Positions 10,326 through 62,924 of a DNA stretch of 64,000 bases are shown in pieces (within the stretch, counting starts at the first letter, position 1; every line of letters starts with the position of its first letter). Source of the DNA: Xestospongia bergquistia (taxonomy: Eukaryota > Porifera > Demospongiae > Haplosclerida > Petrosiidae); contig OZ014411.1 in the NCBI GenBank assembly GCA_963965975.1, forward strand, positions 21,108,446 through 21,172,445. The letters are read 5' to 3'. Made by a program: the position numbers and the translations under genes. The notes under the pieces are model-generated. The model was given only the letters and a program-made list of their open reading frames with translations. It did no database searches and was not told the origin of the DNA.

Positions 10326-10869
10326 AATTAATATTACTAATAAGTATAGTAGTTTATAGTAGCACATCACAGGTTACCACTACAATTATAATTTTCATTA
10401 TAACAAGGATTGTAATCACATCACTATAGCTTCTGTCAATAGTAATAGACAATTTCAATGTTGAGGTAACTGTAATTGACTTTTTTAAAATGAATTGAAT
10501 AATTTCACATTTTAAAATTAAAGTATAACATTGCTATCACATCTTTTTTCATAACGTTAAAAGCTTTATCAAATTAGCATCAACAGCTAGAGCTTTAACC
10601 TCATGAAAGACAAAAGCAGAATATAGTAAGACTATATTAAATTGTATTAGTAATATATTGATTTTAAGGTAATAGTAGTAATATATTATTATTACATTGC
10701 ATTGTAATTGACCTCATGTTTACTATGCACATACAATAATTTGTTGTGATCATTACTATAGTCATTGAATCACTAACATTAGCTCATGCTTTTAAAAGTA
10801 GGCTAGTTGTTGATAACACATTTCAATAGATGTATATGTACACAATGTGGTAATTCATGCTTGTCATGA

Positions 10870-11035
10870 TTACATAATCTTCACATCTCAATACTCCTTG
10901 TCACAATACTAATTATATTATCAGTATTAATATATTTATTATATCAACAAGACAATGAAGACTGTCCAATACAATCATAAGATAATGGAATAACGAATAC
11001 AGAACTTGTAAATATAATTCACTACAAACAGTAAA
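10870..11035 (+). pseudogene. Micropeptide exon 2 relic
   Basis: Retains the membrane core of the 59-residue micropeptide family (ISILLVTILIILSVLIYLL, then YQQDNEDCPIQS) but then meets TAA where intact genes continue. The ATG before the core is lost and no exon 1 precedes it. Confidence 0.75.
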
Positions 11036-11627: not shown

Positions 11628-12436
11628 GCTCACAAGGTTGTTATGATTGAAGTTACTGATTTTATTGGACACATACCATTTGAGTCTCATCACCATGACG
11701 ACGTGAATACTACATTAGAATGTGCAAAAGAAAGTAAGTAATGACATTAGAACTAACCCATATAAATTTACCACTATAGATAAACCACACCCCTAAACCA
11801 CAACCTCCTCAAAATTAGTTAGTGTGCTATGAAATAAAAATAGAATTATATAATATACTACTTTTTTGTAATAGACACTCATGTTTTAGGATTTACAAAA
11901 GTTTATGGGTGGGGTTTTCTTATTGTCACATCTTAAGTTTATATAAACAATTTGTTTGTTATATAGTGATGCAGAGAGGAGAGGTTTTAAGTGGATATTA
12001 TCAGTTCTTAAACAAATTTGGTGAATATGTCTGGATGCAGTCAAGAGGTGTCATTATATATGATAAACACTCAGGCCACCCATCATATGTAGTATGCGTC
12101 AACTATGTCATAATGTAAGTCACTATCCATTCATATACTTGACACATACCTGTATATACTTGTATCTGGTTATTGTATAAGACCTATTATTCAATTGTAT
12201 TTAATAGTGACTTAAGAATATAGTTCTCTATCACTTCCTCTAGTGATGACTCTAAATTAACTAGTAGTACTATACGAAGAGCACAGGAACCTTTTCCAGT
12301 ACCTTCTCCTTCATCTCCATTATCCTCTAATGTTTTAAGTCATATTGTTGTCTCAGACATATATCAATTAGATAATAACTGTACTGTTAGTCCTACAACT
12401 GATAATACAACAAATATATCAGAAGTAAAGACATAG
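11628..12436 (+). pseudogene. bHLH-PAS 3' cassette (exons 7-9), broken, inverted
   Basis: Matches exons 7, 8 and 9 of the bHLH-PAS gene. Exon 7 reads AGGTTGTTATGATTGAAG where the intact gene has AGGTTGTTAGGATTTGAAG: an in-frame TGA plus a 1-nt deletion. Exon 8 (PAS-B strands, YVWMQSRGVIIYDK) and exon 9 are otherwise well kept. The same lesion is in the cassettes at 25.8 and 36.2 kb, so these three share a parent. Confidence 0.85.
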
Positions 12437-14602: not shown

Positions 14603-14982
14603 CAATCATGAAAGTTACTTGTTAATTTTATTATTATTATATCAGAAATAGTCTCTATCTAAGTAGTTCATTGTGTTTGTTGCTAAACTATATGATACAT
14701 TAATGGAAGTTCAATAGATAATTTCACAGTAATAGTGTCTCTTTTTATAGATACAGTTGCCTATTTTAACCACAGGTAATGAGTCTTCGTAAAATTCATT
14801 CTTCACAGCAGATATTTACAATCATACTCATAATAAAATTACACTTAAATGAAATAAGTTTAAAATAATGTATGACATTTGATAATAATAACAAGCATCA
14901 ATCTACAAATCATATGTAGATATCCAATTTATTTAGCTGGTAATGGTACTGTTACATAGTATATTACATACATTTCACTTAC

Positions 14983-15085
14983 CTGATAAGTCCATAACTT
15001 GAGCTGTAATATCACACTGGAGTAGTTGGTCACTTATATAGTAACTGTACTACTAGCTCCACCCTATTAGAAGTTGTTTACATAA
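14983..15085 (-). promoter_or_regulatory. Orphan micropeptide promoter plus exon 1
   Basis: Carries, on the minus strand, the GTAAACAA, GGGTGGAGCT and TATATAAG boxes and the 13-nt exon 1 (14983-14995, ATGGACTTATCAG then GTAAGT). It is nearly identical to the 52.8 kb gene start. The matching exon 2 is missing: similarity ends near 14,700, next to the SDR pseudogene. Confidence 0.75.
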
Positions 15086-15203
15086 CTTCTTTTACCAACT
15101 CTCAAGCATGTTAATTGAATTATTCATTGGACAAGCACACGGCTATCTTATCATTTTAACTTTACAATATTGTCTTGTTTTCTTGAACAGGTTAGACCCT
15201 CAA

Positions 15204-15403
15204 NNNNNNNNNNNNNNNNNNNNNNNNNNNNNNNNNNNNNNNNNNNNNNNNNNNNNNNNNNNNNNNNNNNNNNNNNNNNNNNNNNNNNNNNNNNNNNNNN
15301 NNNNNNNNNNNNNNNNNNNNNNNNNNNNNNNNNNNNNNNNNNNNNNNNNNNNNNNNNNNNNNNNNNNNNNNNNNNNNNNNNNNNNNNNNNNNNNNNNNNN
15401 NNN
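15204..15403. other. Assembly gap, 200 N
   Basis: Exactly 200 N, a conventional scaffold-gap size. The right arm reads straight across the equivalent point (about 52,680) with no extra bases: flanks ACCCTCAA and AGTTAACAGG are adjacent there. Confidence 0.95.
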
Positions 15404-15835
15404 AGTTAACAGGTAGTTATTACATATTATCCCAAAATTTATTTTTATGCTGAAAGTTAGTAAAGGTTGTTGTTAGTGTAACAACAGAGACTAAGAAACA
15501 TTATATGGAACATTTATCATTACACTCATGAAAATGAGCCAAATCATTGGTTGGTGTATGTGTATATAGTAGTTAGACACTGTATACCTTATAAGTGCCC
15601 TGAAACCTGCCTGACTTCCTTTGGGTTGGAAAATAACCCTCAAATATCTCTATCAGTATTATCATTCTTGCTTAGTATTCCACACCATAACAAAGGATAT
15701 ACCTCCTGGGACAGTGCTTATTATTGTTATTTGGGCCTCATTTGGCTAAAAGAAATTGTATTATATTATGAGACCACAAGTATACCTTCATAGTTGAAGT
15801 GATAATCCTATTGTAATTAGTGCACCTGTTATAGA

Positions 15836-16479: not shown

Positions 16480-16640
16480 TTGTAGTGAATTATATTTACA
16501 AATTCTGTGTTCATTGTTCCATTATCTTGTGATTGTACAGTCTACATTATCTTGTTGATATAGTAAGTATATTAATACTAATAATATAATTAGTATTATG
16601 ACAAGTAATATTGAGATGTGAAGATTATGTAATCATGACA
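16480..16640 (-). pseudogene. Micropeptide exon 2 relic, left arm
   Basis: Encodes the ILLVIILIILLVLIYLL core on the minus strand. A deletion in the CCAATACAATCACAAG region then shifts the frame and leads to a stop. No exon 1 is adjacent. Confidence 0.7.
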
Positions 16641-27240: not shown

Positions 27241-27420
27241 TTACTGTTTGTAGTGAATTATATTTACAAGTTCTGTATTCGTTATTCCATTATCTTGTGA
27301 TTGTATTGGACAGTCTTCATTGTCTTGTTGATATAATAAATATATTAATACTAATAATATAATTAGTATTGTGACAAGGAGTATTGAGATGTGAAGATTA
27401 TGTAATAATGACAAGCATGA
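27241..27420 (-). pseudogene. Micropeptide exon 2 relic, unit 1 (also 37574-37753)
   Basis: Keeps the full membrane core and tail in frame (ILLVTILIILLVLIYLLYQQ, then CPIQSQDNGITNTELV). The normal stop is lost, adding NIIHYKQ. Neither the promoter nor exon 1 is next to it, and the ATG before the core is gone. A frame from an upstream ATG is open for 75 codons but its first 25 residues do not match the family. Confidence 0.65.
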
Positions 27421-37192: not shown

Positions 37193-40100
37193 GAGATTAA
37201 CAAGACATATCATGTAATGTAATATGTCATGATATTTTGAACAACATGTGAGTAATATATAACTAATTGTATACTAGATATTTATATTACATTTTATGTA
37301 CAACTCTATAATACTTAAGCTATCATGAAGAGAATATTTCACATTAGGTCAACCTGGACATTTCACATTAAGTAAACCTAGACACTTTACAGTAGGTTAA
37401 TCAGGACACTATTTAAACTAGAGAACAAAGAAAAATAAAAACAAAGATGACAAAAGCAAAAAAATACACACATACATACATACATAACATGTGCTCCAAG
37501 AGGATGTCTGGGTAAGCATAGTACACCATTTAGAAAATGAAACTATATAATGTAGTTCCATGTCCTTTTAAGTTTACTGTTTGTAGTGAATTATATTTAC
37601 AAGTTCTGTATTCGTTATTCCATTATCTTGTGATTGTATTGGACAGTCTTCATTGTCTTGTTGATATAATAAATATATTAATACTAATAATATAATTAGT
37701 ATTGTGACAAGGAGTATTGAGATGTGAAGATTATGTAATAATGACAAGCATGAATTACCACATTGTGTACATATACATCTATTGAAATGTGTTATCAACA
37801 ACTAGCCTACTTTTAAAAGCATGAGCTAATGTTAGTGATTCAATGACTATAGTAATGACCACAACAAATTATTGTATGTGCATAGTAAACATGAGGTCAA
37901 TTACAATGCAATGTAATAATAATATATTACTACTATTACCTTAAAATCAATATATTACTAATACAATTTAATATAGTCTTACTATATTCTGCTTTTGTCT
38001 TTCATGAGGTTATAGCTCTAGCTGTTGATGCTAATTTGATAAAGCTTTTAACGTTATGAAAAAAGATGTGATAGCAATGTTATACTTTAATTTTAAAATG
38101 TGAAATTATTCAATTCATTTTAAAAAAGTCAATTACAGTTACCTCAACATTGAAATTGTCTATTACTATTGACAGAAGCTATAGTGATGTGATTACAATC
38201 CTTGTTATAATGAAAATTATAATTGTAGTGGTAACCTGTGATGTGCTACTATAAACTACTATACTTATTAGTAATATTAATAGCTGGACAGTTTATAGTA
38301 ATATCACTTGTATGGTTGTCTAAGATACATTATTGTCATAGTTACTTGTTTGTAATAGCAACATGTGATATTGATGTATTACTGTAAATGACTATATTTC
38401 GTTAATATTGATAGCTGGACAATTGATAGAAGCTGTTGTTCAACAATAACTCAGTTTATAGTTTATAATTAAAGCTTCGATAGAAAGTTGTAACACTAAT
38501 TAAATTCATTGATTGCCCGGTTGCCTAGTTGAGCGAGCTAGCCCTTTTTCCTTTTGTAATAAGCTGGGTGTCTATATACATAACACCATAATATTGTTAG
38601 GATTACATACCTTACAGGATAGACTTTGTTTGTATTTATCAACTTTGGTATCAACAAAATATCAAATAAAAATTTAGTGAAGCAGAGACTATATATAGTA
38701 TTATATAGAACAACAACTAAAATATGTGTAACCATGGAAACTGAGATTAATATTCATGAATTTTAAAAGTGAAGTTTAAACTAACAAAATTTTCCTAATT
38801 TATGGTATATTTGTTATTATTATTATTAGAATTAATTTTTTAATTAGAATGAGCAATAACTCAAAATAATAAGTGGAAAAATATTTACCTAAAGAATTTT
38901 TGTGTGTGTTATGTCAGTATCATATATGTACATGTATGTATATGTACATATATATATGTGTATAGGATGTCACTGTTAGCCTGTAGTAAACAAGATGATG
39001 CCCTCATGGTAACTATGTAGTAAACAAAATTTTTGTGAAAGTGGGAGAGACAAGGACTATCAGGTACAAACAGTATTATGGCTTTTGAAGATATTGGCTG
39101 ACTCTAGTCTCACAGTCATATCCAACTATATAATTGAATGGTGGATATATCCATGCATTCTTATATCATAGTAGTTGGGTTTGGCTTGTAAACTAACTAA
39201 TTCAGTATTTTTCCACTTGACATGATAATATACTTAATAATATTCGAATTCTATGACAAAGTTGCCAGTAATGCATGCTATCACCAACATTTATTATCAC
39301 TATCATACTGTGTTTTTCAATGGGGTAGCTGTAAATCTTCAACCCCTCCTCCATGTATGGTTAGCTGTGGCCACTCTTGATCTCAATTTAAGACCTATAC
39401 CTTTAGATAATTCTATAATTGTACTTAATAACTAAGTAAACTGTATAAATGAGAGATAAGTTCAATATATTGTCATGATGTTTGCAAGTGAATTGAAACA
39501 GACAGACCCCTATAGATAATGTTGGAATCAACAATTGTTTCTGAATACTATAAAGCCCCATTATTATATGTGTATGAAATGCAAGTTTGCGATCAACTAC
39601 TGTGGCAATGTCATAATCATGCACTCACTTCAATGCACATTCTCAATAGATCCTGTATATTCATTCTGTTCGGATTATGTAAAATAGCATAAAGAAGCTT
39701 ATGGCATCCTGTTTTGATAATTTTATTATTGTCTCTATATTAATTAATCCATTATATACGATAGACGTAAAAAAAACGTCACGTAATAAAGTGCTCGTTA
39801 ATACGGTAGACGTATTTTTACGTCCAGCAATTTCGCTCTCTTTTCTAACAGAAATCTTATAGCTAGCTCACTAAAATTTTATATTAAACAAGTATAAGGT
39901 ATATTAGTATAAAATATACAGTCTATAGTTATTTCTTCCTAGTACTGAACCAGAACGTGCCTTTCAAGTCGATTCATTTCTACGAACGTCCAAAAGATAC
40001 AGATATTTTTCTCATTTTCGTACGTTCTAGCAACCTGTAAAGGGTTGTATAGTCTATTATAATTGTGAAAATACACGTGCAGTGTATGATCAGGTTTAGT

Positions 40101-46498: not shown

Positions 46499-49400
46499 CT
46501 ATGTCTTTATTTCTGATATATTTGTTGTATTATCAGTTGTAGGACTAACAGTACAGTTATTATCTAATTGATATATGTCTGAGACAACAATATGACTTAA
46601 AACATTAGAGGATAATGGAGATGGAGGAGAAGGTACTGGAAAAGGTTCCTGTGCTCTTCGTATAGTACTACTAGTTAATTCAGAGTCATCACTAGAGGAA
46701 GTGATAGAGAACTATATTCTTAAGTCACTATTAAATACAATTGAATAATAGGTCTTATACAATAACCAGATACAAGTATATACAGGTATGTGTCAAGTAT
46801 ATGAATGGATAGTGACTTACATTATGACATAGTTGACGCATACTACATATGATGGGTGGCCTGAGTGTTTATCATATATAATGACACCTCTTGACTGCAT
46901 CCAGACATATTCACCAAATTTGTTTAAGAATCGATAATATCCACTTAAACCCTCTCCTCTCTGCATCACTATATAACAAACAAATTGTTTATATAAACTT
47001 AAGATGTGACAATAAGGAAACCCCACCCATGAACTTTTGTAAATCCTAAAACATGAGTGTCTATTACAAAAAAAGGAGTATATTATATAATTCTATTTTT
47101 ATTTCATAGCACATTAACTAATTTTGAAGAGGTTGTGGTTTAGGGGTGTGGTTTATCTATAGTGGTAAATTTATATGGGTTAGTTCTAATGTCATTACTT
47201 ACTTTCTTTTGCACATTCTAATGTAGTATTCACGTCGTCATGGTGATGAAACTCAAATGGTACGTGTCCAATAAAATCAGTAGCTTCAAATCCTAACAAC
47301 CTTGTGAGCCTACAAGTAAACATAATGTAATAGAGAGATTAACAAGACATATCAGATATGCCATGATATTTTGAACAACATGTGAGTAATATATAACTAA
47401 CTGTATACTATATATTTATATTCCATTTTATGTATAACTCTATAATGCTTAAGCTATCATAGTTATTATTCCACTCTACATTCCTATTATAACAAACTTG
47501 GTCATATTCATTAGGTCTTAAGTGTATTGTTCTGAGCCTTTCTATAAAGATTATAACTAATGTTATGTAGTAATAATTATATGATGACCTAACAGTTATT
47601 GTCTAAAGTATCAAAGCAACATGTCCTAATATAAATGTTTATTTAATATAAATAGTGTCTCAGTCCATCTAATGAACTAAAAACCTCATATTAAAATCTA
47701 TTGCAGCTATAACAAACTTATAACAAAATGTTATAGTTGAGCTAAACACTATTTTGATAATTTTTTCAACATTTTGAACTCATTTACATAATATTAATAT
47801 ATGAATGTTTAAGAAGTAAGAAATTGAAAATGAATGCTAGAGTGATTATATGATTCAATAAAGAAACAACTTTAGTTTATTTAAACTCTTCAATTTGCAA
47901 CTTTTAAAAAATGATAAAGTAAAACAATAAGTGAAAGATAATTTGTAAGTTGATGTTTTATTTTAATAAGTCTCATTCACTGTCAATCATTGTACATACC
48001 TCATTGGCATTTTAATGATTACAGTAATAGTTACTACACATAGTTTTAGATTACAGCTGCTGTTTGTTCATAAAATTACAATTAGATACAATAACATTCC
48101 TTATAAAGACACATTATGTCTCATCTATTTCTCTCCTCCCTCTTGTTTCTCTCTTGAACTTACTGTTATCTTTCAGGGAAGCTATGTAAACAACTTCTAA
48201 TAGGGTGGAGCTAGTAGTACAGTTACTATATAAGTGATCAACTACTCCATTGTGATATTACACCTCAAGTTATGGACTTATTAGGTAAGTGAAATGTTAT
48301 GTAATATACTATGTAACATTAAAGGATCAGCCTGTTCTGTTATAATGTTATACTTCAAAGAGTAATACCAGATTGGATATCTACATATGATTTGTAGACT
48401 GATGCTTGTTATTACTATCAAATGTTATACATTTAATTTAAACTGATTGATTTAAGTGCAACTCTATTACTACAAATATCTGGAGCGAAAAATAAATTTT
48501 ACAGAGGCTCACTAGCTATGTTTAAAATAGTTAACTGTATTTATAACAGGAGACACTATTACTGCATAATTTTAAATTATTGGTTTGGTCTGCTAAAGAA
48601 GTCTAGATGCTGTATTCCTTAGCTGTCTCCATGAATGGAAGTTCAATATATATACCTCTACTATTAACAGGATCATTACATAATAGGTGCTATATTGCTG
48701 GACTATTCTGTAATTAATAAAGTTTTAAAAACTATTCAATATGTCTATCATTTATAGCATGTATTTATTGTCACTGGATAATTCACATTTCTTTCCATAG
48801 AGTACATCCCCCCAGTCACGATGACTCATTTTCTCATCTCAATACTCCTTGTCACAATACTAATTATATTATTAGTATTAATATATTTATTATATCAACA
48901 AGACAATGAAGACTATCCAATACAATCACAAGATGATGGAATAAAGAACACAGAACTTGTAATATAGACAGTGAAATGAAAAAACTAACAGTCTATTGTA
49001 ACTATATATTGAACATGTAATTACATGTATAATCATTGTATGTAATGAGTGTTTGAGTTATCTATATTTTAAACAAATATTTCAATGCCATATTAATTTA
49101 AATAAATCAGAATGAATTCAGTGAAAACAATTCACAGACAATATTGCTTATACTAGTACATGCATAGTTTGGGTGATTATGACAGATACCTCACAAGTTC
49201 ATTAATGTGTACTACATCATTTTACTACCAATACAAAGAGGATAGAAAGGCTTTCAGTACTAGTAGCTCAACTGTTTGCACTGTCAGTTCATACCAACAA
49301 TTAGACACAGGCACATTGTGAGGAGAGTTAACATAAGCTATATAGGAAAACAGAGGCAAGCACCACGACACAGCAATTGTGAAATAAAAGGTAACTGACA

Positions 49401-52400
49401 TTCTATACATTATTGTAACTTTTAGTTTTAATTTGTTACATTTGGAATTACATTCAACATGACAACTATATATCTTCTATAGAAACCATGTACATAATTT
49501 TAGAGCTACTGAAGCACAAGACCAAAAGCTATGTTGGGAAAGGAAAAATAAAAAATTTTACAGTAAATAAAACAGTGTGAAGAGACTGAGTTAGCCAATG
49601 CCCTCAAAAGCCATAATACTGTTTGTACCTGATAGTCCTTGTCTCTCCCACTTTCACAAAAATTTTGTTTACTACAAGTTACCATGAAGGCATCATCTTG
49701 TTTACTACAGGCCAACAGTGACATCCTATACATATATATTATATGTACATATACATACATGTACATATGTGATACTGACACAACACACACAAAAATTCTT
49801 TAGGTAAATATTTTTCCACTTATTATTTTGAGTTATTGCTCATTCTAATTAAAAAATTAATTCTAATAATAATAATAACAAATATACCATAAATTAGGAA
49901 AATTTCGTTAGTTTAAACTTCACTTTTAAAATTCATGAATATTAATCTCAGTTTCCATGGTTACACATATTTTAGTTGTTGTTCTATATAATACTATATA
50001 TAGTCTCTGCTTCACTAAATTTTTATTTGATATTTTGTTGATACCAAAGTTGATAAATACAAACAAAGTCTATCCTGTAAGGTATGTAATCCTAACAATA
50101 TTATGGTGTTATGTATATAGACACCCAGCTTATTACAAAAGGAAAAAGGGCTAGCTCACTCAACTAGGCAACCGAGCAATCAATGAATTTAATTAGTGTT
50201 ACAACTTTCTATCAAAGCTTTAATTATAAACTATAAACTGAGTTATTGTTGAACAACAGCTTCTATCAATTGTCCAGCTATCAATATTAACGAAATATAG
50301 TCATTTACAGTAATACATCAATATCACACGTTACTATTACAAACAAGGAACTATGACAATAATGTATCTTAGACAACCATACAAGTGATATTACTATAGC
50401 TTGTATAAACTGCCCAGCTATCAATTTTACTAATAAGTATAGTAGTTTATAGTAGTACATCACAAGTTACCACTACAATTGTAATTTTCATTATAACAAG
50501 GATTGTAATCACATCACTATAGCTTCTGTCAAGTGTCCCATTTTAAATGCTATTATTTTAGTATACTACCACTTATATTAGTAACATCAAAACTTTAATT
50601 ATTTAAAATTAATTTCTATGTCTAACAATTTCTGAGAGTATTTACAACTATACTTCAAGAATTAATCAATAACACTCTACAAATTATACTTTGCAAGTGT
50701 AGGTGCTGAAGATGACAGTCATCAAATATAGAGTGTCATTAAAACATTTACAATAGATCTATATTACATGTACATTGTAGCAAGTGGTACTGATGTCTAG
50801 CTGTTATGTATTATACCTATAATTAATAAAACATCATAATATACAGTACAAGAGCCTCTATTGATTGCATATAAACTTTTCAGACTGTTCATATTGAGCT
50901 ACACACGTACCAAGTTATCAAAATTATTTACTTTAAATTGTGTACCAGACATTGAGTAATAATGATAGTAATAGACAATGTCAATGTTGAGGTAACTGTA
51001 ATTGACCTTTTTAAAATGAATTGAATAATTTCACATTTTAAAATTAAAGTATAACATTGCTATCACATCTTTTCATAACATCAAAAGCTTTATCAAATTA
51101 GCATCAACAGCTAGAGCAATCATAACCTCATGAAAGACAAAAGCAGAATATAGTAAGAATATATTAAATTGTCTAGCAGAAGTATATTGATTTTAAGGTA
51201 ATAGTAGTAATATATTATTATTATATTGTATTGTAATTGACCTCATGTCTATTGTGCACACACATAAATTGTTGTGGTTATTACTATAGTCATTGAATCA
51301 CTAACATTACCTCACATTTTAGTCTAGTTGTTGATAACACATCTCAATAGCCACAATCTACATGTACATGTACACAATGTGGTAATCCATGCTTGTCATG
51401 ATTACATAATCTTCACATCTCAATATTACTTGTCATAATACTAATTATATTATTAGTATTAATATACTTACTATATCAACAAGATAATGTAGACTGTACA
51501 ATCACAAGATAATGGAACAATGAACACAGAATTTGTAAATATAATTCACTACAAACAGTAAACTTAAAAAGACCTGGAACTACATTATATATTTTCATTT
51601 TCTAAATGATACACTGTGCATACCCAGATATCCTCTTGGAGCACATGGTGTGTATGTGTGTGTGTGTATTTTTTTGCTTTCACCATCTTTGTTTTCATTT
51701 TTCTTTGTTCTCTAGTGTAGATAGTGTCTTGATTAACCTACTGTAAAGTGTCTAGGTTTACTTAATGTAAAATGTCCAGGTTGACCTAATGTAAACAATG
51801 TCCAGGTTGACCTTGAACTAATGTAAACAGTGTCTAGGCTGACCAAATGTAAAGAGTGTTCAGATTGGCCTAATGTAAAGAGTGTTCAGGTTGGCCAGTG
51901 TCCAGGTTGACCTTGAACTAATGTAAACAGTGTCTAGGCTGACCAAATGTAAAGAGTGTTCAGATTGGCCAGTGTCCAGGCTGACCTTGAACTAATGTAA
52001 ACAGTGTCTAGGCTGACTTAATGTAAAGAGTGTTCAGGTTGGCCTAATGTAAAGAGTGTTCAGGTTGGCCTAATGTAAAGAGTGTTCAGGTTGGCCAGTG
52101 TCCAGGTTGATCTTGAACTAATTGTCTAGGCTGACCAAATGTAAAGAGTGTTCAGGTTGGCCTAATGTAAAGAGTGTTCAGATGCCTAATGCAAATAGTG
52201 TGGAGGCTGATTGTCTAGTGTGAATAGTGTCCAGTTTACATTAGCTTGTCTATAACAGGTGCACTAATTACAATAGGATTATCACTTCAACTATGAAGGT
52301 ATACTTGTGGTCTCATAATATAATACAATTTCTTTTAGCCAAATGAGGCCCAAATAACAATAATAAGCACTGTCCCAGGAGGTATATCCTTTGTTATGGT

Positions 52401-55400
52401 GTGGAATACTAAGCAAGAATGATAATACTGATAGAGATATTTGAGGGTTATTTTCCAACCCAAAGGAAGTCAGGCAGGTTTCAGGGCACTTATAAGGTAT
52501 ACAGTGTCTAACTACTATATACACATACACCAACCAATGATTTGGCTCATTTTCATGAGTGTAATGATAAATGTTCCATATAATGTTTCTTAGTCTCTGT
52601 TGTTACACTAACAACAACCTTTACTAACTTTCAGCATAAAAATAAATTTTGGGATAATATGTAATAACTACCTGTTAACTTTGAGGGTCTAACCTGTTCA
52701 AGAAAACAAGACAATATTGTAAAGTTAAAATGATAAGATAGCCGTGTGCTTGTCCAATGAATAATTCAATTAACATGCTTGAGAGTTGGTAAAAGAAGTT
52801 ATGTAAACAACTTCTAATAGGGTGGAGCTAGTAGTACAGTTACTATATAAGTGACCAACTACTCCAGTGTGATATTACAGCTCAAGTTATGGACTTATCA
52901 GGTAAGTGAAATGTATGTAATATACTATGTAACAGTACCATTACCAGCTAAATAAATTGGATATCTACATATGATTTGTAGATTGATGCTTGTTATTATT
53001 ATCAAATGTCATACATTATTTTAAACTTATTTCATTTAAGTGTAATTTTATTATGAGTATGATTGTAAATATCTGCTGTGAAGAATGAATTTTACGAAGA
53101 CTCATTACCTGTGGTTAAAATAGGCAACTGTATCTATAAAAAGAGACACTATTACAGTGAAATTATCTATTGAACTTCCATTAATGGAGGACAGCTAAGA
53201 ATTACAGTATCTAGACTTCGATAGCAAACCAAACTAATGATTTAAATTTATATGTTTGAATTGCATTCACATTTATGTAGGTATTATAAATCACTCATTT
53301 CATTTCATTCTTTCTCTAGAGGGCCTCCTCCCAGTCATGATGCCTGATCTTCTCATCTCAATACTCCTAGTCACAATACTAATTATATTATTAGTATTAA
53401 TACATTTATTATATCAACAAGACAATGAAAACTGTCCAATACAATCACAAGATAATGGAGTAAAGAACACAGAACTTGTAATATAACTCATTACAAACAG
53501 TGAACATTTAACTCTACATGTCATATTATGTTAAGTGTTTGAGTTAATAATATTATGTAGAAATGTGTCATTGATAGTTACTTTTAACAAAACTACCAAA
53601 GCAGCAATAAATTCATTGAATAGATCATACTATGTACCTATACATATATCTGTAGTCTATTATTGTGAATACACCAGATATTATCCAAAATTCATCTTTT
53701 ACAACTAACAAAAGGATAGAGAACCTTCAATAAAATCAATTATTGGGAGAGAAAAATAAAGCTTACACACTAATGGACTAGCCAGTTCATATGAACAAAG
53801 AAAAGCTAAAAAAACTGAACAAGGAAAGTTTATAGAGACTGGTTGACCAGAGAAGCATACTCCTAGACTGTCTGACACAATCATCATTGTTTGTTCAAAG
53901 TGTATTAAGGAAATTAATGGGTAACTTCGTGTATTAATGAACTACCACACACAAAGTCAAGCTTGTAGTTTTGAAATAATAATTAAACATTACTATTAAC
54001 TAAGAGAGAGTTCTACCATCAATAGTACTAGTAGTAGTAGCAGTAGTTATGTATTACTCAACTCAAGTTGTGTAGTGACACTACTACTACCAACTTGACT
54101 GTAATAATAGTAACTAGCTATGTATTACTTAACCTTTGTTCCAGGCTGAAAAGAACAAGTGTGCTCTGACTATTTTGGTAACTTTATTATCAGCAAAATA
54201 TCAAATAAACAATTATAAGTTGTCCAAATAACACTGTGAAGCATGTCCCAGAGTAGCAGGGACTTTTGTTACTGGAAAGGACGTAATGTAAACACTGCAT
54301 ACATAACCCAGTGTGTTAGGTAGTAATATGTTTGGATCTTGTGTCATGTTTTGTACATGTTTTGTACTTTATTATTGTATTCAGTTAGAGAATGTGACTA
54401 TCAAAACTTCCAAGAAACATTAGCAATTAATGGATTCTTCATGACAAGAGTTTTGTGGCTTTGATTAAAGCTCTACAAGTTAAAAATAATTTGATAGCTG
54501 ACAGCATCATAGCTTTTGTCAACTATCCAGTAATCAAAATTAGAAATAATATGATAGTTTACGTTAACAGAATCAATATCACAATAAAAATAAACTAGAA
54601 AGATTTTTATGATTGATGGCACACATAAAAATTCACAATAGCTTTTTGTTGTTTGGGTTGACATACAACTTTAAGATATCCTGAACTGATGTCAAAGGAG
54701 ACAGACATTGTTTAAACTATATTTCTTAGACATAAATGTCTGCTTTACATAACAAACACTTCATCAAAATTTTGTTTATCAGTATTTTATCATATAAGCA
54801 TATCATCATTTCCATCAAAACAATATTTAAGTGAATTTATTAAACAAAAAGGTAATTATTTAAGTCTCTCCATATAGTAGATATGTTTAGAAATCTCATT
54901 TAACATGCTATGTTCCTTAAATATTCAAAATAGCATAATGAGAAAGTTGTGGTGAATACTATTATGAGCTCCACCCTAGCAGTAGTTGTTTACCTGACCT
55001 CTTTCTGTACCAAAGTCAATGTAATTCCCACATCCTTGTTAAGAACATGAGTATATTTAACATATACTCAACTATCATAATATTATGATAAGTTATGTCA
55101 CTACTCATAAGGCAATGACTAATCTGACCTTTCAATGAATATGATCAAAATTCTATGTCAAAGTGATCATGTAGAGATGCATACTTTTAACATTATGCTA
55201 TTACATGATAACTCCACAAAGCTACTGCAAATACACATGAACCAATACTATGAATTGATTTGTTGCTTCAGGAAGAGTATCTATATTAGGTCATTGCTTT
55301 GTTCTAAAATATTATAACATTATGATAGTGGGTATAACACTATTGTATTGATTATCATATGGGAATTTTGCTTAAGAAAATTAAACTGGAGTTCAAGCAA

Positions 55401-58400
55401 ACAAGTATTACTATGGTGGAACTTATAGTATTATAAGTAAATATAAGTGAGCCACACTATCCAAGGATAAATCTGCTAGTAAAATAACACAACCTTCACA
55501 TATGTTACTATTGCAGTCTCAATTTGTCATTTCAATAGGAAGAAGGGATACTATTAAAAGGTGGCCACTAGTGTAGCCCTAGCCTTTGTCTATATGCCCA
55601 TTAACTTGTTAATATCAACCAATAAATTGTTAAAGTGAAGAGAATGTTGTGTACCTCATAAAAGGTTCCTTTCACATGTCCTGGAATGACAGATGCTTAG
55701 GACAAACAGTACTATTAAGTTCTACTAAAAAATCTGATTATGATCAATTATTACATATTACTATAGTAGAAGCTGAAATAGATAGATGTAATACAATAGA
55801 GTTAAATATTGACATGTGTACATTGTACATGCTCAAGATAACTTACCCAATGTTCTATTATTACAAATTAAAATCTGGATGTATGGAGATGTTTGAGCTA
55901 ACGAAGCCAATGAATTTGGGTATACTAGGCAATAAACAAACCTCTAGTTCAGGTCCTTTGAAATCATAACAATCATAACTAGTGTTTATGTGGCTTTAAA
56001 AATAATCTAGATATTATCAACTAAATGGAGGTTATCTCAGTATCCAAAGACTGACAGTAGTTCATTTGTTTTTGAATTATTTGCTTAATCACTCTTTGAC
56101 TATAAATAGTCACAGTGTACTTCATGGTATATCATATAGGAATTTGCTAAGGCAAGCTAATTTTGAGGTCAGGTAAACAAGTATTACTATAATGGAGCTT
56201 GTAGTAGTATAAGTAAGTATATATGTAAGCCACTATCCAATGATATATTTATTAGTACAATAATACCACCTTCAGTTATGCTACTATTGCAGAGTTATTT
56301 TGTCATTTCAATAGGAACGGGAGGTTAATATCAAAAGGTTGCTACTAGTATAGCTCTTTTACTTGAAGAAATTAAGTACATGCAATTGTCTCAAAAAATG
56401 ACACACAGGTGGACTACCTGCCTGTTTCATGTGTACAGATGTGATGACACTAGTAACATCATATGGTTTAGTAACAGCCCTCAGCTAAATTCTCACAATG
56501 ACATAAAATATGAATTACTTAAGGAAAAGCAAGCTTTGTTATTATATCCTATAGTTTGATAACATCATCCAACAGATGGTCAAGGTAAAGACAATGTATT
56601 GCATCTCATAAAACTTTCACATGTTCTGGAATAACAGATGCTTAGGACAAACATTTCTATTTGATTGTACTACTGGAATAACTTAATGCCATAATTGACA
56701 TACTTTATACACAATGTATCATGAGGCTTTGTTTAATAAACAACCATTGACTTGAATATCACTTATACATGTCCTGAAATGTGAATATAGTGATGTTCAC
56801 ATACACCCAGAGGTAAAATGCACACACCATCACATGTTATACCTCTTTATTCAATAAACAACAATTAACTTGAATATCACTTATACATGTCCTGAAATGT
56901 GAGTATAATGATGTTCACATACACCCAGAGGAAAAATACACACACCATCGCATGTCATACCTCTTTGTTTAATAAACAACCATTGACTTGAATAACACTT
57001 ATACATGTCCTGAAATGTGAGTACAGTGATGTTACCCAGAGGTAAAATACACATACCACAAGATGTTAGCAAGGGATGGTTGGAATCAAATGTAGTTCCT
57101 AGAAATACAGTTACAGTTAGACTATAAATGGACATTAAATGGTATGTATAAGTTTGGATAGGGAAGCTTGAGGTCAAGTAAACAAGTATTGACAGGGTGG
57201 AGCTCATAGTAGAGTATATAAGTAAAGCACTATTCAGCGATACATTAGAGCTGAAGCTATGTACTTATTATCAGGTGAGTGAAGTAAGACTAAATCAGTT
57301 TAGTTTACTGTATGTTATTGTATCAATAATATATATTAGTCATTTAACTAAATGTTAAGTTATTTGTTAATGTTGCTATTGTTTTAATAATTATAATACA
57401 CACATAGTTATAAAACAGTGTTTGTAAAATGTTCTGCTTCATTTCAAATTTGACATATTCAAGTATACTATGTCATAGGTATCATTGTACATGTGAAATG
57501 TAGTATGGTATATTGTAAAATAAAATTCAGGAATTTGCTGGAATCTTATTAATCTAGATTATTGACATGACTATGAATATTATAAACAGAGAGACAAATA
57601 CAATATGACCTTTAGATGTTGTCTCTGTTTTATCAAAAAGTCTAGATGCTGTATATCTGGACTATCTTCCAAATGATGAAAGTTCAATATATAAGCTTAT
57701 TAGAATAGAACTGTAATACTGGATGTTGTGTTTATGAAAGTTTATATGATGTGTTATTGTGCCTACAAGACATTTAATGAAGTTCATATGTATTGCAGCT
57801 CTATGTATATACTGGTCATTATAGCTTCTAAATGCTTGGCTAAATAAAAGTTCATATCATGTTATTATAGCTACTAGATGCTGTGTGTGTCTGGCCTAAA
57901 TAAAAGTGATTATAATTGTAGCTACTAAAGTCTGTTCACATTAACTTTGACTTTTGTTTTCTACCATAACTTCGTCTTTTTCATGACAATTACTCTAATA
58001 TAGCTCTTTCCATTAAATTTGACAGTCTATAGACAGTTGTATTAGTATTAAACATAATATTGTCATAAGGCTACATATAAATTGATGGATTAAAACAAGA
58101 TGAAACCATTAAAGTGATCTACTTGGTAAATAAACTTTAGATGTCATGCAATCTCTTAATTTTATTAATACTTTGATCCCTTGACTACTTATTATATTGA
58201 GCAAGTGATAATTTAGTAATTTCTAAGCTATAAACAATACAATATTGGGTATACAATTTTTTTCTTATAGGATGCTTCTTTATTATGATGCCTCATCTTC
58301 TCATCTCAATACTCCTTGTCATAATACTAATTATATTATTAGTATTAATATATTTATTATATCAACAAGATAATGTAGACTGTCCAATACAATCACAAGA

Positions 58401-61400
58401 TGATGGAATAATGAACACAGAACTTGTAATATAAACAGTGAAATGAAAGAACTATTATATATAATTTATCATTTATTATAACTACATTGAGTATTGTACT
58501 TCATACGTAATAGAAATAACAACATATTATAAGCAAATATAATGTAAAGGATATTTTATTAATAACCAATAACACAATAGACAGGGTCATTTTATAGATA
58601 TGGGTGATGGGTGTGGCTTGGAATAGCTACCAATTAATGAACTATGTGTGGGATATTAATAAAAAAGTATTTTATAAAATAATATTATAACAACTAATTG
58701 AACTTAAATTATTCATAGTTTCTATACTAGCCTGTACAATTACTGAGCCCAAACATGAGACATGTGATCACAAGTTGTAATCATAGTTTTATAAGGAAGA
58801 ATACCTATCTATTTAATACTGAAGAATTATTCTCAAAACCCATAACCACAAAGAAGGGAGCAAGTATGTATGTTGCTCAGTTGACTGACTAAAGGAAAAG
58901 GATTCAACTATAGCAATAATAAGGCTAAGAGATAAGAAAAGGAACTCATTGGCAAGAGGACTTTCTAATTAAATGTTACTAGTGACATGGATTATTGACA
59001 TGTATACATAGACAGGCTCAACAGAGTTACCATTGTGTACCTTTTAATTTTATTGCTTTGTTTATTGTTTTAGTATAAGTATATATTATTGTTGTGAGAT
59101 TAAATAAACAATAATATTGGTAAACAACACTAGAGGATCAACTAGACAACACTAAATGAAAACAACTAAAAAGAACACAAGACTTTGTCTCAAGAAGTAA
59201 AAAAAAATAGATTTAATGTTACTTGTGGCTTTGATCTCTTAGTCTGGTCAGAATAATAGTAAACTTTAGCATTTATAACATATTTTCTTTATACCTAGCT
59301 TTGAACATAGTCTTTGATATTATATACTTCCATACTATTCTAGCCATATTGTACACATCCATTCCATCTGCTATATCAATTGTTTTAAATTCATTTCTGT
59401 GGACATAACTAAACAAGTATTCTAACATAACTGTGGTTTTAGGTTCTATTTAACAATTATTAATTGTTATATTCCTAAATGTGACTAAACCACATAACAT
59501 AATGTATAATTATACTATACAGACATGTATCTATGCATATAAATTTATATAGAAATGAAAGAGAGATTTTATAGCATTGTTTGGATTAGTTGCTCATGCT
59601 AAGGCACTTGGCAAATAGTCATCCTTGTTATAAGAGGTATGTTAAGGTATGTTATGTATCTTCTAGTGACAATAAAAGTAGATAGATACATAATGGATTA
59701 TGAATGTAACATAATTAAGAAAACCTAATTTTACAAACCTTTTAAATATTTATTTATGACCATAATATCATCAACACATCTGAATTAACTAATCAAACTT
59801 ATTAGTGTGATAATTATATTTCAAACGATTACTACTTCCTAATCAATAACCAAAGACTCTCCATTTTTATTCATTAAAACAACAAAACCTTTCCATCCTA
59901 AACAGATCTATAGCAATTGTGTTTCTATATACACTAATTATGTCTTATTAGTGTGACATGAATATCACGCACACATATACAATGAAATGGAATAACAGTA
60001 GTGATGTCATAATAAAGACCAATGAGGATATATGTTACCATAAATATGAAAATGGTACCTAACGCGCAAGCAAATTTTGAAGAAATGCTTGTGTAGAAAC
60101 GGTTGCTACGCATTCATCTTCAACAGGAAATCAATATGGTAATATGGTATATCAAATGGCTGCATACCAACAGTTTATACGCAAGCGTTCATTCAAAATT
60201 TGTTTGCGCGTTAGGTACCATTTTCGCATTTATGGTCACATATGTTACCATGTCATTACCTTCCATCAAAGTAGATACATTTCATTTCCAATGAATAGTG
60301 AGTTACAAAAACATTGTCCTCTGTTTTTATCTCCACAATGGTAGGCGGAGTCACTGGATAAACCACACCCATCAACACTGGTTCATCACATACTTGTTGT
60401 TTGAGATGACCCGACACAAATACAAGCTAAAAGATAAACAGATACTGCACAACATGTACACATGAATCACAATTATCACATATTACACATCAGAAAAGTC
60501 ACATATTACACACCATACATTACACATCATTGATATCACATTATTATGTGATATCACCAATCACTATCTAGTTTGAACTTGATAGTAGTTTCGTGGAATT
60601 TTGATAATGAAAAACATCAACAAATTATGTTGGGCATCGTCCTTGTTATTACTATAAAAGGCATTTTATTTCTTTTCTAAATATTAGTATTCCAACTAGT
60701 GAATACTATTGTGAGTGTCTGTTAATAACATGTAAATTATCTGTGACATCACATCATGATGGAATGTGAAGAACACCAACACTTTATATAGGATTATAGT
60801 TTACTACTTTCCTTAACAGCTTCCTTGACTACTTTCCAGTTTTCATATATTTCAAGTGGAATTACAATATGTATTGAATGGTACAAACCAGTTCTCTCTA
60901 ACTTATTCCTAACTTGAGATGTAACACTGAGTCAGGGGTCAAACTCAAATTGGATAGAGTACATTTTGTTATTAATAAAAATGGATATATACAAGTAAAC
61001 AGCTAAGACGTGTAAACCATATTAGGTAATAATTATATTGTTTACAACATACACTCTATATGTCTTACTCTATAATTATAAGAATATGAAGTTGATTGTG
61101 GTGCCTTATTTCGAGAACATTTCATTCGACAGAAGAAGGAACAATTGACAGAGCCTTAAGAATTTAAAAATTTTAAAAAAGTATTATATAGAAGTGAAAA
61201 GTTTATTGTTAGAACTAAATAAACATTTCTGTACATTTAGGCCACTTTGGAAAATTTATACTTAAAAATACAAGTGTTAAATCAACTGTTCTATAATATA
61301 CTACTGAAACCGTGCATATAAAGTATATATTGCTTACGTTCATGTGACATGTGACCAAGCAGTCTTGCTTCAGCATCACTTAGTACACCTCTAACATTAA

Positions 61401-61545: not shown

Positions 61546-62407
61546 AATTGAGACTAAGTATATAGACTAAACATATTGTATCTTTAATATTGAGAATGTA
61601 TCTGATAGGGTTTAACTATCAGTAAAAGTACATGTACATTTATATGTATATATATGTATATTCATGTGTAATGGATTTATTGTGATAATTAATTACCTGA
61701 AAAAGTCCCAAGTGTTTGTGAACACTCACTGATAAGTAAATTATGAGACCATTAGACTGTGCTACTAGGAGAAACCCATCTAGTGACTAATGAGAGAGGG
61801 AGGAGGATGAAAGGATGGGAGAAACAATACCACAAACAACTATAATTATACTCACTTCACATAACATATCTTGCAGCCTGCCTTTGCTAATAATATCAGT
61901 AGATGACATGGTATATTGATCTAAGGACAAAACATAACAAAGTAAAGGTATTGTTCTTCAATAATTCTTTAAATGTCCTATCCTAAAATGTCTAAATACA
62001 TAATGTTTACTACTGGGTCATTTCCATATTGAGCCCCTATAATTACTTTATTGTTTAGTAAATAGTACTTTGCCAACCTGTGGTTGTAATAGAAACCAAT
62101 GAACCAAAGGAAACAACAATTAAGGAAGGTCAGAGTATCACTATGACATTTAACTTGTAATATTATATTACCTATCATAACCACACTTACCATCAGTGGT
62201 GTGAGGACTGCTAACAAGAGATTTAATACGTATGTAACACAATGCTAGTCTTAGCAATGAATTTTGATCCATTTTATCAATGACATCTTTGGAGAATGGC
62301 AACAAACATGACAGCTCATCTATTAATGATTTAAATGTTGTTCGTCTCTTACAAGCATAATTTCGACACCGCTCTCGTTTTCGTTCTAAGGATTTATCAC
62401 ATTCCAT
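46499..62407 (-). CDS. bHLH-PAS transcription factor, HIF/SIM/AHR-type (9 coding exons)
   Basis: Exons: 62191-62407, 61856-61920, 61697-61786, 61338-61452, 61069-61154, 60260-60426, 47203-47309, 46821-46968, 46499-46691. Every phase matches and the 1,188 nt encode 395 residues. The bHLH (about 8-63) has the basic run RNYACKRR and LLPFSKDVIDKMDQNSLLRL, near AHR LLPFPQDVINKLDK. PAS-A starts at about 95 (SLDGFLLVAQSNGLIIYLS) and continues through SEYMGLSLFDIIHEED and SFFCRMKC. PAS-B (about 230-332) has HYSLEMKCIYFDGRLTRLLG and GYYRFLNKFGEYVW to VCVNYVI, closest to HIF/SIM. Such alpha-class factors dimerise with ARNT in the nucleus. The C-tail is only 64 residues with no LxxLAP hydroxylation motif, so it is not a canonical HIF-alpha. 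Intron 6 is 12.95 kb; the others range from 69 bp to about 640 bp. Confidence 0.85.
48186..48234 (+). promoter_or_regulatory. Promoter of micropeptide gene A
   Basis: GTAAACAA (48186-48193, matching the forkhead-type core), GGGTGGAGCT (48203-48212) and TATATAAG (48227-48234). The TATA lies 45 bp before the ATG, so the 5' UTR would be only about 15 nt. The same boxes with near-identical spacing precede genes B and C. Confidence 0.7.
48272..48967 (+). CDS. 59-residue single-pass membrane micropeptide, gene A
   Basis: Two exons, 48272-48284 (13 nt) and 48801-48967, joined in phase 1. The product begins MDLLEYIPPVTMTHF, has a ~20-residue hydrophobic helix (ISILLVTILIILLVLIYLL) and a polar acidic tail YQQDNEDYPIQSQ ending NTELVI. 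I do not recognise the family. Two paralogues of exactly 59 codons share core and tail while the first 15 residues vary, suggesting selection on the membrane segment and tail. The helix is too C-terminal and the protein too short for a cleaved signal peptide to be likely. Topology is unclear. It lies in bHLH-PAS intron 6 on the opposite strand, just outside the array. Confidence 0.72.
48968..49579. other. Spacer between micropeptide gene A and the right inverted-repeat arm
   Basis: AT-rich, unique within the window as far as I can see. Short minus-strand open frames here show no family features. Confidence 0.4.
51385..51540 (+). pseudogene. Micropeptide exon 2 relic, right arm
   Basis: Mirror copy of the 16.5 kb relic: core ISILLVIILIILLVLIYLL, then a deletion after NVDC that shifts the frame (TITR, stop). 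Confidence 0.7.
51715..52245. repeat. Minisatellite, right arm
   Basis: Units based on TAATGTAAAGAGTGTTCAGG and TTGGCC, with GTCTAGGCTGACC variants; mirror of 15.84-16.33 kb but with a different unit order, so the two arrays have changed since duplication. Confidence 0.9.
52803..52851 (+). promoter_or_regulatory. Promoter of micropeptide gene B
   Basis: GTAAACAA (52803-52810), GGGTGGAGCT (52820-52829) and TATATAAG (52844-52851), 45 bp before the ATG. Spacing is identical to gene A. Confidence 0.7.
52889..53486 (+). CDS. 59-residue single-pass membrane micropeptide, gene B
   Basis: Exons 52889-52901 and 53320-53486, phase 1, intron 418 bp. Begins MDLSEGLLPVMMPDL, core ISILLVTILIILLVLIHLL, tail YQQDNENCPIQSQDNGVKN ending TELVI. 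Same length as A and C. The promoter and exon 1 sit inside the inverted-repeat arm but exon 2 lies outside it, which explains the orphan first exon at 15.0 kb. Confidence 0.72.
53500..54950. other. Gene-poor intron 6 segment
   Basis: AT-rich sequence with no recognisable exon, repeat or element. Open frames of 60-63 codons on the minus strand lack codon or domain support. Confidence 0.4.
54955..55000 (-). promoter_or_regulatory. Relic of the micropeptide promoter, minus strand
   Basis: Read on the minus strand: GGTCAGGTAAACAACTAC, then AGGGTGGAGCTCAT. No TATA box or first exon follows, so it is a remnant. Confidence 0.5.
55350..56660. repeat. Diverged tandem duplication carrying promoter relics
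   Basis: Segments of about 0.4-0.5 kb at 55350-55730 and 56130-56660 share AACAAGTATTACTAT, a GGAACTT or GGAGCTT box, and later CAGATGCTTAGGACAAAC. Both resemble the region upstream of gene C (57.17-57.24 kb). They look like decayed micropeptide gene starts with no surviving exon. Confidence 0.6.
55649..55969 (+). other. Unassigned 106-codon open frame
   Basis: The longest open frame in intron 6. Its middle (LLHITIVEAEIDRCNTIELN) has a protein-like composition, but I see no known domain. The 5' part overlaps the duplicated segment, whose second copy does not keep the frame. It may be a decayed exon or chance. Confidence 0.2.
56728..57060. repeat. Tandem repeat, ~117-bp unit, about 2.8 copies
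   Basis: Units start near 56728, 56845 and 56962 with AATAAACAAC, and share ACATGTCCTGAAATGTGA and ACACCCAGAGG. The long minus-strand open frame across them is a product of the repetition. Confidence 0.8.
57178..57222 (+). promoter_or_regulatory. Promoter of micropeptide gene C
   Basis: GTAAACAA (57178-57185), GGGTGGAGCT (57195-57204) and TATATAAG (57215-57222), 44 bp before the ATG. Sequence between the boxes differs from A and B, so the boxes themselves look conserved. Confidence 0.7.
57259..58434 (+). CDS. 59-residue single-pass membrane micropeptide, gene C
   Basis: Exons 57259-57274 (16 nt) and 58271-58434, phase 1, intron 996 bp. Begins MYLLSGCFFIMMPHL, core ISILLVIILIILLVLIYLL, tail YQQDNVDCPIQSQDDGIMN then TELVI. 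Exon 1 is one codon longer and exon 2 one codon shorter than in A and B, yet the total is again 59 residues. Intron and flanks are the most diverged of the three, so this is the oldest surviving split, and conservation of the protein is the more telling. Confidence 0.72.
58440..60020. other. Gene-poor intron 6 segment
   Basis: AT-rich with no exon or repeat family I can support. Confidence 0.4.
60030..60243. mobile_element. Palindromic MITE-like element beside bHLH-PAS exon 6
   Basis: Two inverted arms of about 85-90 bp share CATAAAT, GAAAATGGTACCTAACGCGC and CAAATTTTGAA, with a central region of about 35 bp. The outer ends read ATATGT and ACATAT. It is more CpG-rich than its surroundings, non-coding, and sits only 17 bp from the exon 6 donor. 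No clear target duplication. Open frames within it are incidental. Confidence 0.75.
61499..61544. repeat. (TA)n microsatellite in bHLH-PAS intron 3
   Basis: About 22 uninterrupted TA dinucleotides, starting some 45 bp upstream of exon 4 (as transcribed, in the intron before it). Confidence 0.9.
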
Positions 62408-62924
62408 TTTTCTACTCAGAGATAAATCTTGTAAAGTCGTAATTCTGAGACTGACTGAATATACTTGCACTAGCAGACTATGAGGACACTGATGAGTACA
62501 ATATATACTGTAAAAGACAAACGTATTATTACATAGGAATACGACAATCAGTGAAAAAACAGTAGAATATGATGACTAACCTGAAACCAAAGACTACAGA
62601 TAGAGATCTTTGCTGAAACACAAAGCGCGAAAATGCGAAAACAACAACAATAACATTATTATTAATCCTTGCATGTACATCTTCTCCTCCCCATCCTGTC
62701 ACGCCCTATTGACCTGACGTTACTAGAGTTACGAGCATGCGCTAGAATCTACGCGAATGCATTAATAAAATATTATTACTAGAGGGGAGTAAAAGCTATC
62801 AATACAGTAGTGAAAAAATACAGTCAGTGAAATTTTACAAAAATAAAGTGGAACAAAGCTATATCCTGACAAGTAAAATATATCATAATATTACAATATA
62901 TAATATATAAGTGCATGAGTAATA
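62408..62924. other. 5' region of the bHLH-PAS gene and intergenic DNA
   Basis: Contains a likely non-coding leader: the frame stays open upstream of ATG 62407 to a GTG at 62470 but has no other ATG. A modest CpG cluster at 62.60-62.76 kb (AAGCGCGAAAATGCG, TGACGTTACT, ACGCGAATGC) probably marks the promoter. Confidence 0.45.

Follow-up and report, generated by a model that had tools for sequence, protein, structure and literature searches.

Short helix-and-tail genes of the sponge Xestospongia bergquistia as candidate ectodomain-less relatives of Ig/FN3 receptor-like genes

The window analyzed here is a stretch of 64,000 nt from the sponge Xestospongia bergquistia (GenBank assembly GCA_963965975.1, contig OZ014411.1; C1:21108446-21172445 in our numbering), and it carries three very short genes, A, B and C, which belong to a family dispersed over several contigs and sharing its tail with receptor-like genes. 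Gene models made from the window sequence give each of the three 59 codons plus a stop, in two exons joined by a phase-1 GT..AG intron, and reproduce the original prediction of 59-residue genes at 48272, 52889 and 57259 with introns of 418-996 bp. Gene A, on the forward strand like the others, begins with an exon of only 13 nt (48272..48284; MDLL plus one nucleotide), followed by an intron of 516 bp and a second exon (48801..48967) that encodes helix and tail, ends in TAG and reaches a hydropathy of 3.3 across 19 residues. The first exon of B is likewise 13 nt in length (52889..52901), its intron 418 bp, and its second exon lies at 53320..53486. In gene C, where the exons (57259..57274, 16 nt, and 58271..58434) flank a 996-bp intron, exon 1 is 3 nt longer and exon 2 is 3 nt shorter than in A and B, which is the compensating one-codon shift described earlier. 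The hydrophobic maximum of all three products falls at residues 17-35, with a mean hydropathy of 3.2-3.6.

Local alignment of the three genes places a promoter or 5′ end, on the plus strand, before each first exon, at 48178..48271 in A (with GTAAACAA, AGGGTGGAGCT and the TATATAAG box), 52797..52888 in B and 57178..57258 in C; the TATATAAG box is located about 40 nt 5′ of the ATG in each. A methionine codon within exon 2 (residue 12 in all three) may serve as an alternative start, giving peptides of 48 residues that resemble the 46-residue peptide of subfamily D, described below, and the high-identity tract of the three genes starts close to this conserved codon. The helix-coding DNA also contains an AT-rich, near-perfect palindrome (AATACTAATTATATTATTAGTATT, 48856-48879 in A, with equivalents in B and C), which could favor breakage and gene conversion.

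Searches of the sponge's own genome (146.5 Mb, 21 contigs) recovered 30 places of one plan, a hydrophobic helix followed by a single tail, on contigs C1, C2, C3 and C7; this count is a lower bound, since the genome search scores only the best candidates. With A as query, B was found at E 8e-19, C at E 7e-18 and divergent relatives at E 0.005-0.009 genome-wide, including members on C1 (1.39-1.48 Mb) and C2 whose tails end in TELVV-stop. A search with a D peptide returned A, B and C at E 0.001-0.009 and a receptor tail at C2:1788412 at E 2.7e-4, again genome-wide. Subfamily D occupies eight places on C1, C2 and C3, subfamily E 11 full-length places within C1:1.40-1.52 Mb, and subfamily F five full-length places, four on C2 and one on C7; the remaining members are another type at C1:1413190 and further places at C1 1384298 and 1457284. 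Twenty-three of the 30 were read (the three in the window, eight D, seven of 11 E, four of five F and one other) and seven were counted by match alone. In each of the 23 the product ends in [LIM]-V-[VI]-stop, the variants being L-V-I, L-V-V, I-V-V and M-V-I, so that the conserved polar tail and hydrophobic-x-hydrophobic C-terminus claimed for A, B and C now characterize a larger family. The tail consensus of the short genes is [PG]-[IV]-[QE]-[AS]-x-D-x-G-L-x-x-T-E-L-V, from which individual members deviate at some positions. The three window genes conform to [AS]-x-D-x-G-[LIV]-x-x-[ST]-[EQ]-[LIM]-V, and a few distant members depart from it at one or two positions.

The peptides of A, C, one D and one E gene gave no Pfam match over the curated cut-off (best E 0.0075), and for A and C this agrees with the original view that they represent no described family. 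The matches below the cut-off mostly covered the helix and were rejected. Viral contigs and contigs of prokaryote genomes, in scans sensitive to close relatives only, held no relatives of the family. No match to it was recognized in the available parts of the literature on sponge micropeptides, sponge PDZ ligands, small open reading frames (ORFs) and start-codon first exons, or in those on tails of sponge receptors with immunoglobulin (Ig) and fibronectin type III (FN3) domains, ITIM-type Ig receptors of sponges, receptor-tail gene families and receptor decoys.

By sequence comparison, the start codon lies no more than 16 nt from a splice junction in A, B and C and in subfamilies D, E and F alike. 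The D genes share a block 450-640 nt 5′ of the helix exon, which in seven of eight copies ends ATG/GTTAGT or ATG/GTAAGT (the slash marking the junction). All seven E copies read have ATG/GTAAG, which in the four measured precedes the match by 1.17-1.19 kb, so that the conserved upstream block ends in ATG/GT in 14 of the 15 D and E copies. As the helix exon follows its acceptor in phase 0 in the copies inspected, exon 1 would supply the methionine only. In F the acceptor is found 2 nt before the ATG in three of four copies, those that retain it. With a start codon so near the junction, the helix itself would have to act as the signal anchor. The E genes (loci L025, L027, L028 and L029; C1:1.40-1.52 Mb) possess a second helix-like exon ahead of the main one, which differs in length between copies by an in-frame 12 nt; a two-helix product from these genes is possible.

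Comparison of the coding sequences shows purifying selection in subfamilies D and E. The ratio of nonsynonymous to synonymous divergence (dN/dS) is 0.32-0.62 in 13 of 15 D pairs and 0.20-0.42 in nine of ten E pairs. Two D pairs have no synonymous change, one near-identical E pair gives 0.87, and many of the pairs share branches. In four D/E pairs, picked as independent once the dN/dS table had been viewed and pooled without a tree, 28 of 127.5 synonymous and 40 of 418.5 nonsynonymous sites had changed (p=0.0004).

The situation among A, B and C is quite different. From near the internal ATG to the stop, their second exons are 93-95% identical in DNA sequence (dS 0.03-0.07). A global alignment, which misplaced the promoter of C and thereby understated its similarity, gives 57-76% identity for the initial 29 nt of exon 2 and 42-69% for the introns where they align. 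In local alignment, promoter, exon 1 and donor together are 96% identical between A and B over 118 nt and 71% between A and C over 111 nt, and A and B diverge immediately upstream of this block and in much of the intron. The 48 common codons contain one (A-B), one (A-C) and two (B-C) synonymous differences against eight, six and eight nonsynonymous ones, giving dN/dS values of 2.3, 1.7 and 1.1. At the divergence of the A-B intron (69% identity) about 9-10 synonymous changes would be expected between A and B, and one was observed in some 31 sites (p=0.0003). Exon-2 relics in the window, at 95% and 92% identity to A in one lineage and 84% in the other, compare with the 93-95% of B and C. Because exon 2 is near-identical at the DNA level and relics of one lineage are equally similar, the resemblance of A, B and C is no sign of protein selection, and exon 2 has probably been copied or converted recently between the loci. 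The original prediction had taken this conservation as a functional sign, for which the dN/dS of 1.1-2.3 gives no support; helix and tail have indeed been kept, as it stated, but at the level of the DNA, which does not point to selection on the protein. As evidence of selection the conservation of A, B and C was accordingly rejected, on these dN/dS values and on the equal likeness of the relics of one lineage. The block of promoter, exon 1 and donor looks constrained, although conversion could also explain it.

Five relics consisting of exon 2 only were located by alignment, the first of them also by genome search, and they fall into two lineages; all are frameshifted and one has a stop in addition. 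The copy at 10863..11016 (+) has an in-frame TAA and a frameshifted end. Those at 27259..27398 (−) and 37592..37731 (−) are counterparts in adjacent 10.3-kb tandem repeats, each with a 1-nt insertion that shifts the end of the frame, and those at 16491..16639 (−) and 51395..51543 (+) are inverted twins, each with a 5-nt deletion. BLASTN with the promoter and exon 1 of A and C found no promoter beside any of these relics. Alignment further revealed four orphan promoter pieces, one of which (14970..15087, −), within an inverted duplicate, retains an intact B-type exon 1, with no exon 2 copy found near it; the others are at 54959..55001 (−), 55383..55441 (+) and 56163..56249 (+). The at least five relics first reported are thus confirmed. 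As judged from the sequence, the lineage is turning over in the window, where copying or conversion of exon 2 between loci has left nine broken pieces beside the three candidate genes.

Such a setting raises the alternative that A, B and C are themselves non-functional, or nearly so, being remnants of helix/tail exons that segmental duplication and gene conversion have scattered; this could hold irrespective of the reality of the distant subfamilies as genes. We regard it as a serious rival, if on the unlikely side. It would account for dN/dS values of 1.1-2.3 with only one or two synonymous differences a pair, for the single A-B synonymous difference beside an intron of 69% identity, a mark of recent copying, for promoterless relics 84-95% identical to A, and for a locus rich in 10.3-kb tandem and inverted repeats. 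It fits poorly with the retention of promoter, exon 1 and donor as a block (A-B 96%, A-C 71%) amid diverged A/B surroundings, and with the fact that all three genes are open and share an identical end residue, the two indels in C leaving its frame intact.

Four places, L033 to L036, surfaced among the weak matches of the search with A. In L033, L034 and L036 the helix/tail exons are preceded on the same strand by open exons resembling Ig and FN3 domains; no ectodomain exon was seen for L035. The tails of such receptor-like genes repeat a unit with the core AxDxGLxxTELVY, in L033 as units such as YCQPIQAIHHGLYHTELVYNNYTGGYPVQVEND (six by profile) and in L061 as units such as VDNDDLYCCAIECIDQGLHTELVYSTYKYIPHIN (seven by profile). 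After TELV there is mostly Tyr, sometimes Phe or Cys, in the receptor-like tails, whereas the short genes have Val or Ile and then a stop, none of the 23 members read having Tyr, Phe or Cys at this point. The short genes hold one tail unit and the receptor-like genes mostly several. The cluster at C3:9.454-9.487 Mb (L061, L062 and L021) contains receptor-like tails built of as many as seven similar units of 35 residues; most units include TELVY, and their number varies by place.

A profile of 11 short-peptide tails, with the helix excluded, was run against these genes with 200 column-shuffled profiles as controls. Among 1166 ORF pieces it scored 87.6 for L033, 37.2 for L034, 17.2 for L035 and 17.1 for L036, the next piece reaching 6.7; the shuffled profiles reached 15.5 at best and 9.0 at the 95% level. 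Since these four places had been found with the short peptide, L061, L062 and L063, which were found with a receptor query, were also tested, 0.8-1.4 kb of each being read, tails only. In this set of 92 pieces the scores were 56.8 for L062 and 56.3 for L061, both at E about 1e-17; L063 was hit in two pieces, at 12.7 and 11.9, the best of 200 shuffles being 8.3. The tail of the short genes is therefore one unit of the receptor-tail repeats, and they do not form an isolated micropeptide family; neither this link nor the spread over four contigs was part of the original prediction.

For the ectodomains, a profile of the Ig-like exons made without L031 weakly matched Ig chains in the PDB, with a best E of 0.004; the 24 chains reached up to E 1 were all of Ig type. 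The corresponding FN3-like profile matched titin at 5e-5 and ten chains in all, every one from a protein that has domains of the FN3 type. Adding the Ig/FN3 pair of L031, which is not linked to a gene with the family tail, improved these values to 1e-4 (Ig) and 9e-10 (titin), and in single-exon Pfam scans fn3 was found in one of eight ectodomain exons, that of L031.

With eight receptor ectodomain exons as queries and a limit of E 0.05, the window gave no match, a search that a more diverged ectodomain could escape, and for this reason A, B and C would be ectodomain-less relatives of the receptors and not receptors. Within the same limit, this negative also speaks against another possibility, in which larger receptor genes, so far unannotated, use the short exons as alternative or terminal exons and the upstream ATG blocks as internal ones. 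In favor of such larger genes, like helix/tail exons follow Ig/FN3-like exons elsewhere, the helix exon of L033 is in phase 1 as are those of A, B and C, and four of the 15 D and E copies are open for the 30 codons upstream of the ATG. Seven others have an in-frame stop 18-28 codons upstream, and in the remaining four it is only 0-8 codons away: 0 and 5 in the D copies L044 and L041, and 8 in the E copies L027_6820 and L029. In 14 of the 15 no other in-frame Met occurs in the 30-codon stretch. Together with the TATA box directly before exon 1 in A, B and C, these stops and the lack of ectodomain matches make a larger gene improbable. A second alternative, which we think very improbable, holds that the short genes encode stand-alone micropeptides of the phospholamban/sarcolipin type, regulating a pump or channel via the helix, and that the likeness to receptor tails is incidental. 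Size, a single helix and a short acidic tail would suit such a role, but the A, C, D and E peptides match no Pfam family over the cut-off, and the tail alone, without the helix, retrieves the receptor tails.

The explanation we favor, for which we consider the case evenly balanced, is that A, B and C belong to a family of receptor stubs, found genome-wide, which lack an ectodomain and share a cytoplasmic partner with the receptors. Each stub would consist of one membrane helix and one cytoplasmic tail unit. As in the receptors, to judge by analogy, the helix would span the membrane with the tail inside, and the tail would bind a putative partner also bound by the receptor repeats. Without the tyrosine after TELV, the stub might act as a competitor (decoy) or as a constitutive dock for receptor signaling, and through its free C-terminus, [LIM]-V-[VI], it may also make a contact of the PDZ type. 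The wider proposal, that dispersed genes of several subfamilies, each an anchor with one tyrosine-less unit of the sponge's own Ig/FN3 receptors, form a built-in decoy or docking layer whose first coding exon is sometimes the start codon alone, is doubtful and is put forward tentatively.

Several points weigh against the stub explanation. Both the short genes and the receptor genes are predictions from sequence; A, B and C show no constraint at the protein level; and the eighth D copy (ATA for ATG) and the F copy without an acceptor look dead. In the D copy L043 a second in-frame Met precedes the ATG by 18 codons. The four pooled D/E pairs were chosen with the dN/dS values in view, and the single-pair p is 0.057, 0.31, 0.0018 and 0.14, three of four above 0.05. 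Preselection of L033 to L036 by a weak short-peptide match flatters their tail-profile E-values, L035, L021, L061, L062 and L063 are called receptors from the likeness of their tails, and the Ig match is weak when the unlinked L031 exon is left out.

As for the surroundings, A, B and C lie antisense between parts of a probable basic helix-loop-helix (bHLH)-PAS gene. A bHLH exon at 62168-62572 (−) matches Pfam bHLH_HIF1A with 29.5 bits (cut-off 27; E 9e-7), and the window has seven PAS_11-like half-domain copies, all below the curated cut-off, one at 11966-12112 (+) and six on the minus strand at 24.2-47 kb (starts 24209, 26157, 34542, 36490, 44875 and 46823), the copy nearest to A, B and C being 46823-46969. 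The PAS family PF00989 had no match in the window. The location within a transcription-factor intron, as originally described, is plausible and in part supported by the antisense position between the bHLH exon and weak PAS_11-like copies; the intervening exons were not found, and more than one intron may be involved. The last common ancestor of animals is reported to have lacked the hypoxia-inducible factor (HIF) pathway (PMC5800844), which makes the identity of this gene noteworthy.

Much of the window is repetitive. Between about 18 and 47 kb (18000-47700) there are three 10.3-kb tandem units, near-identical over long stretches and with inner duplications, which reflect either recent amplification or an assembly matter; each contains one reading frame of 236-237 amino acids, which we take to resemble an SDR-type dehydrogenase. 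Large inverted repeats link parts of the window, further copies in both orientations lie at 9-17 kb, and masked or unknown bases (about 15200-15416) occur inside the inverted duplicate of the 5′ end of gene B. Adjoining gene B itself, at 51723-52201, is a degenerate tandem array with a period of about 26 (CTAATGTAAAGAGTGTTCAGGTTGGC) and higher-order periods of 74 and 100.

Should the stub explanation be correct, the short genes would be a class readily overlooked by annotation and linked to a receptor system of this sponge. It would offer an idea of receptor tuning in early animals, single tyrosine-less units set against multi-unit tyrosine tails, and suggest a route by which micropeptide genes and receptor exons interconvert. 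The locus also counsels caution, as high exon identity of neighboring copies may be due to gene conversion, not selection.

Among known systems, phospholamban, sarcolipin and the regulins are micropeptides that regulate SERCA; the short genes resemble them in size and single helix but match no Pfam family, and their most specific shared part is the tail. Class II PDZ ligands end in a hydrophobic-x-hydrophobic motif, as do all 23 short members read, which makes these candidate ligands by sequence; since the TELV core is internal in the receptor-like tails, it would not be a PDZ ligand only. The Ig/FN3 receptor-like genes (L033, L034 and L036, with related tails on C2 and C3) share with the short genes a helix and, after it, the tail unit PIQAxDxGLxxTELV, and differ in their ectodomain exons (in these three), their mostly multiple units and the residue next to TELV, usually Tyr but in some cases Phe or Cys, none of which the short genes have. 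Immune receptors of vertebrates use short transmembrane adaptors such as DAP12, DAP10 and FcR gamma. Unlike these, the short genes have no ITAM (immunoreceptor tyrosine-based activation motif) or YxxM tyrosine motif in the tail, and only some D members have an acidic residue within the helix. They share with these adaptors a tiny ectodomain, one helix and a short tail, and the adaptors work alongside larger receptors, as is proposed here for the short genes.

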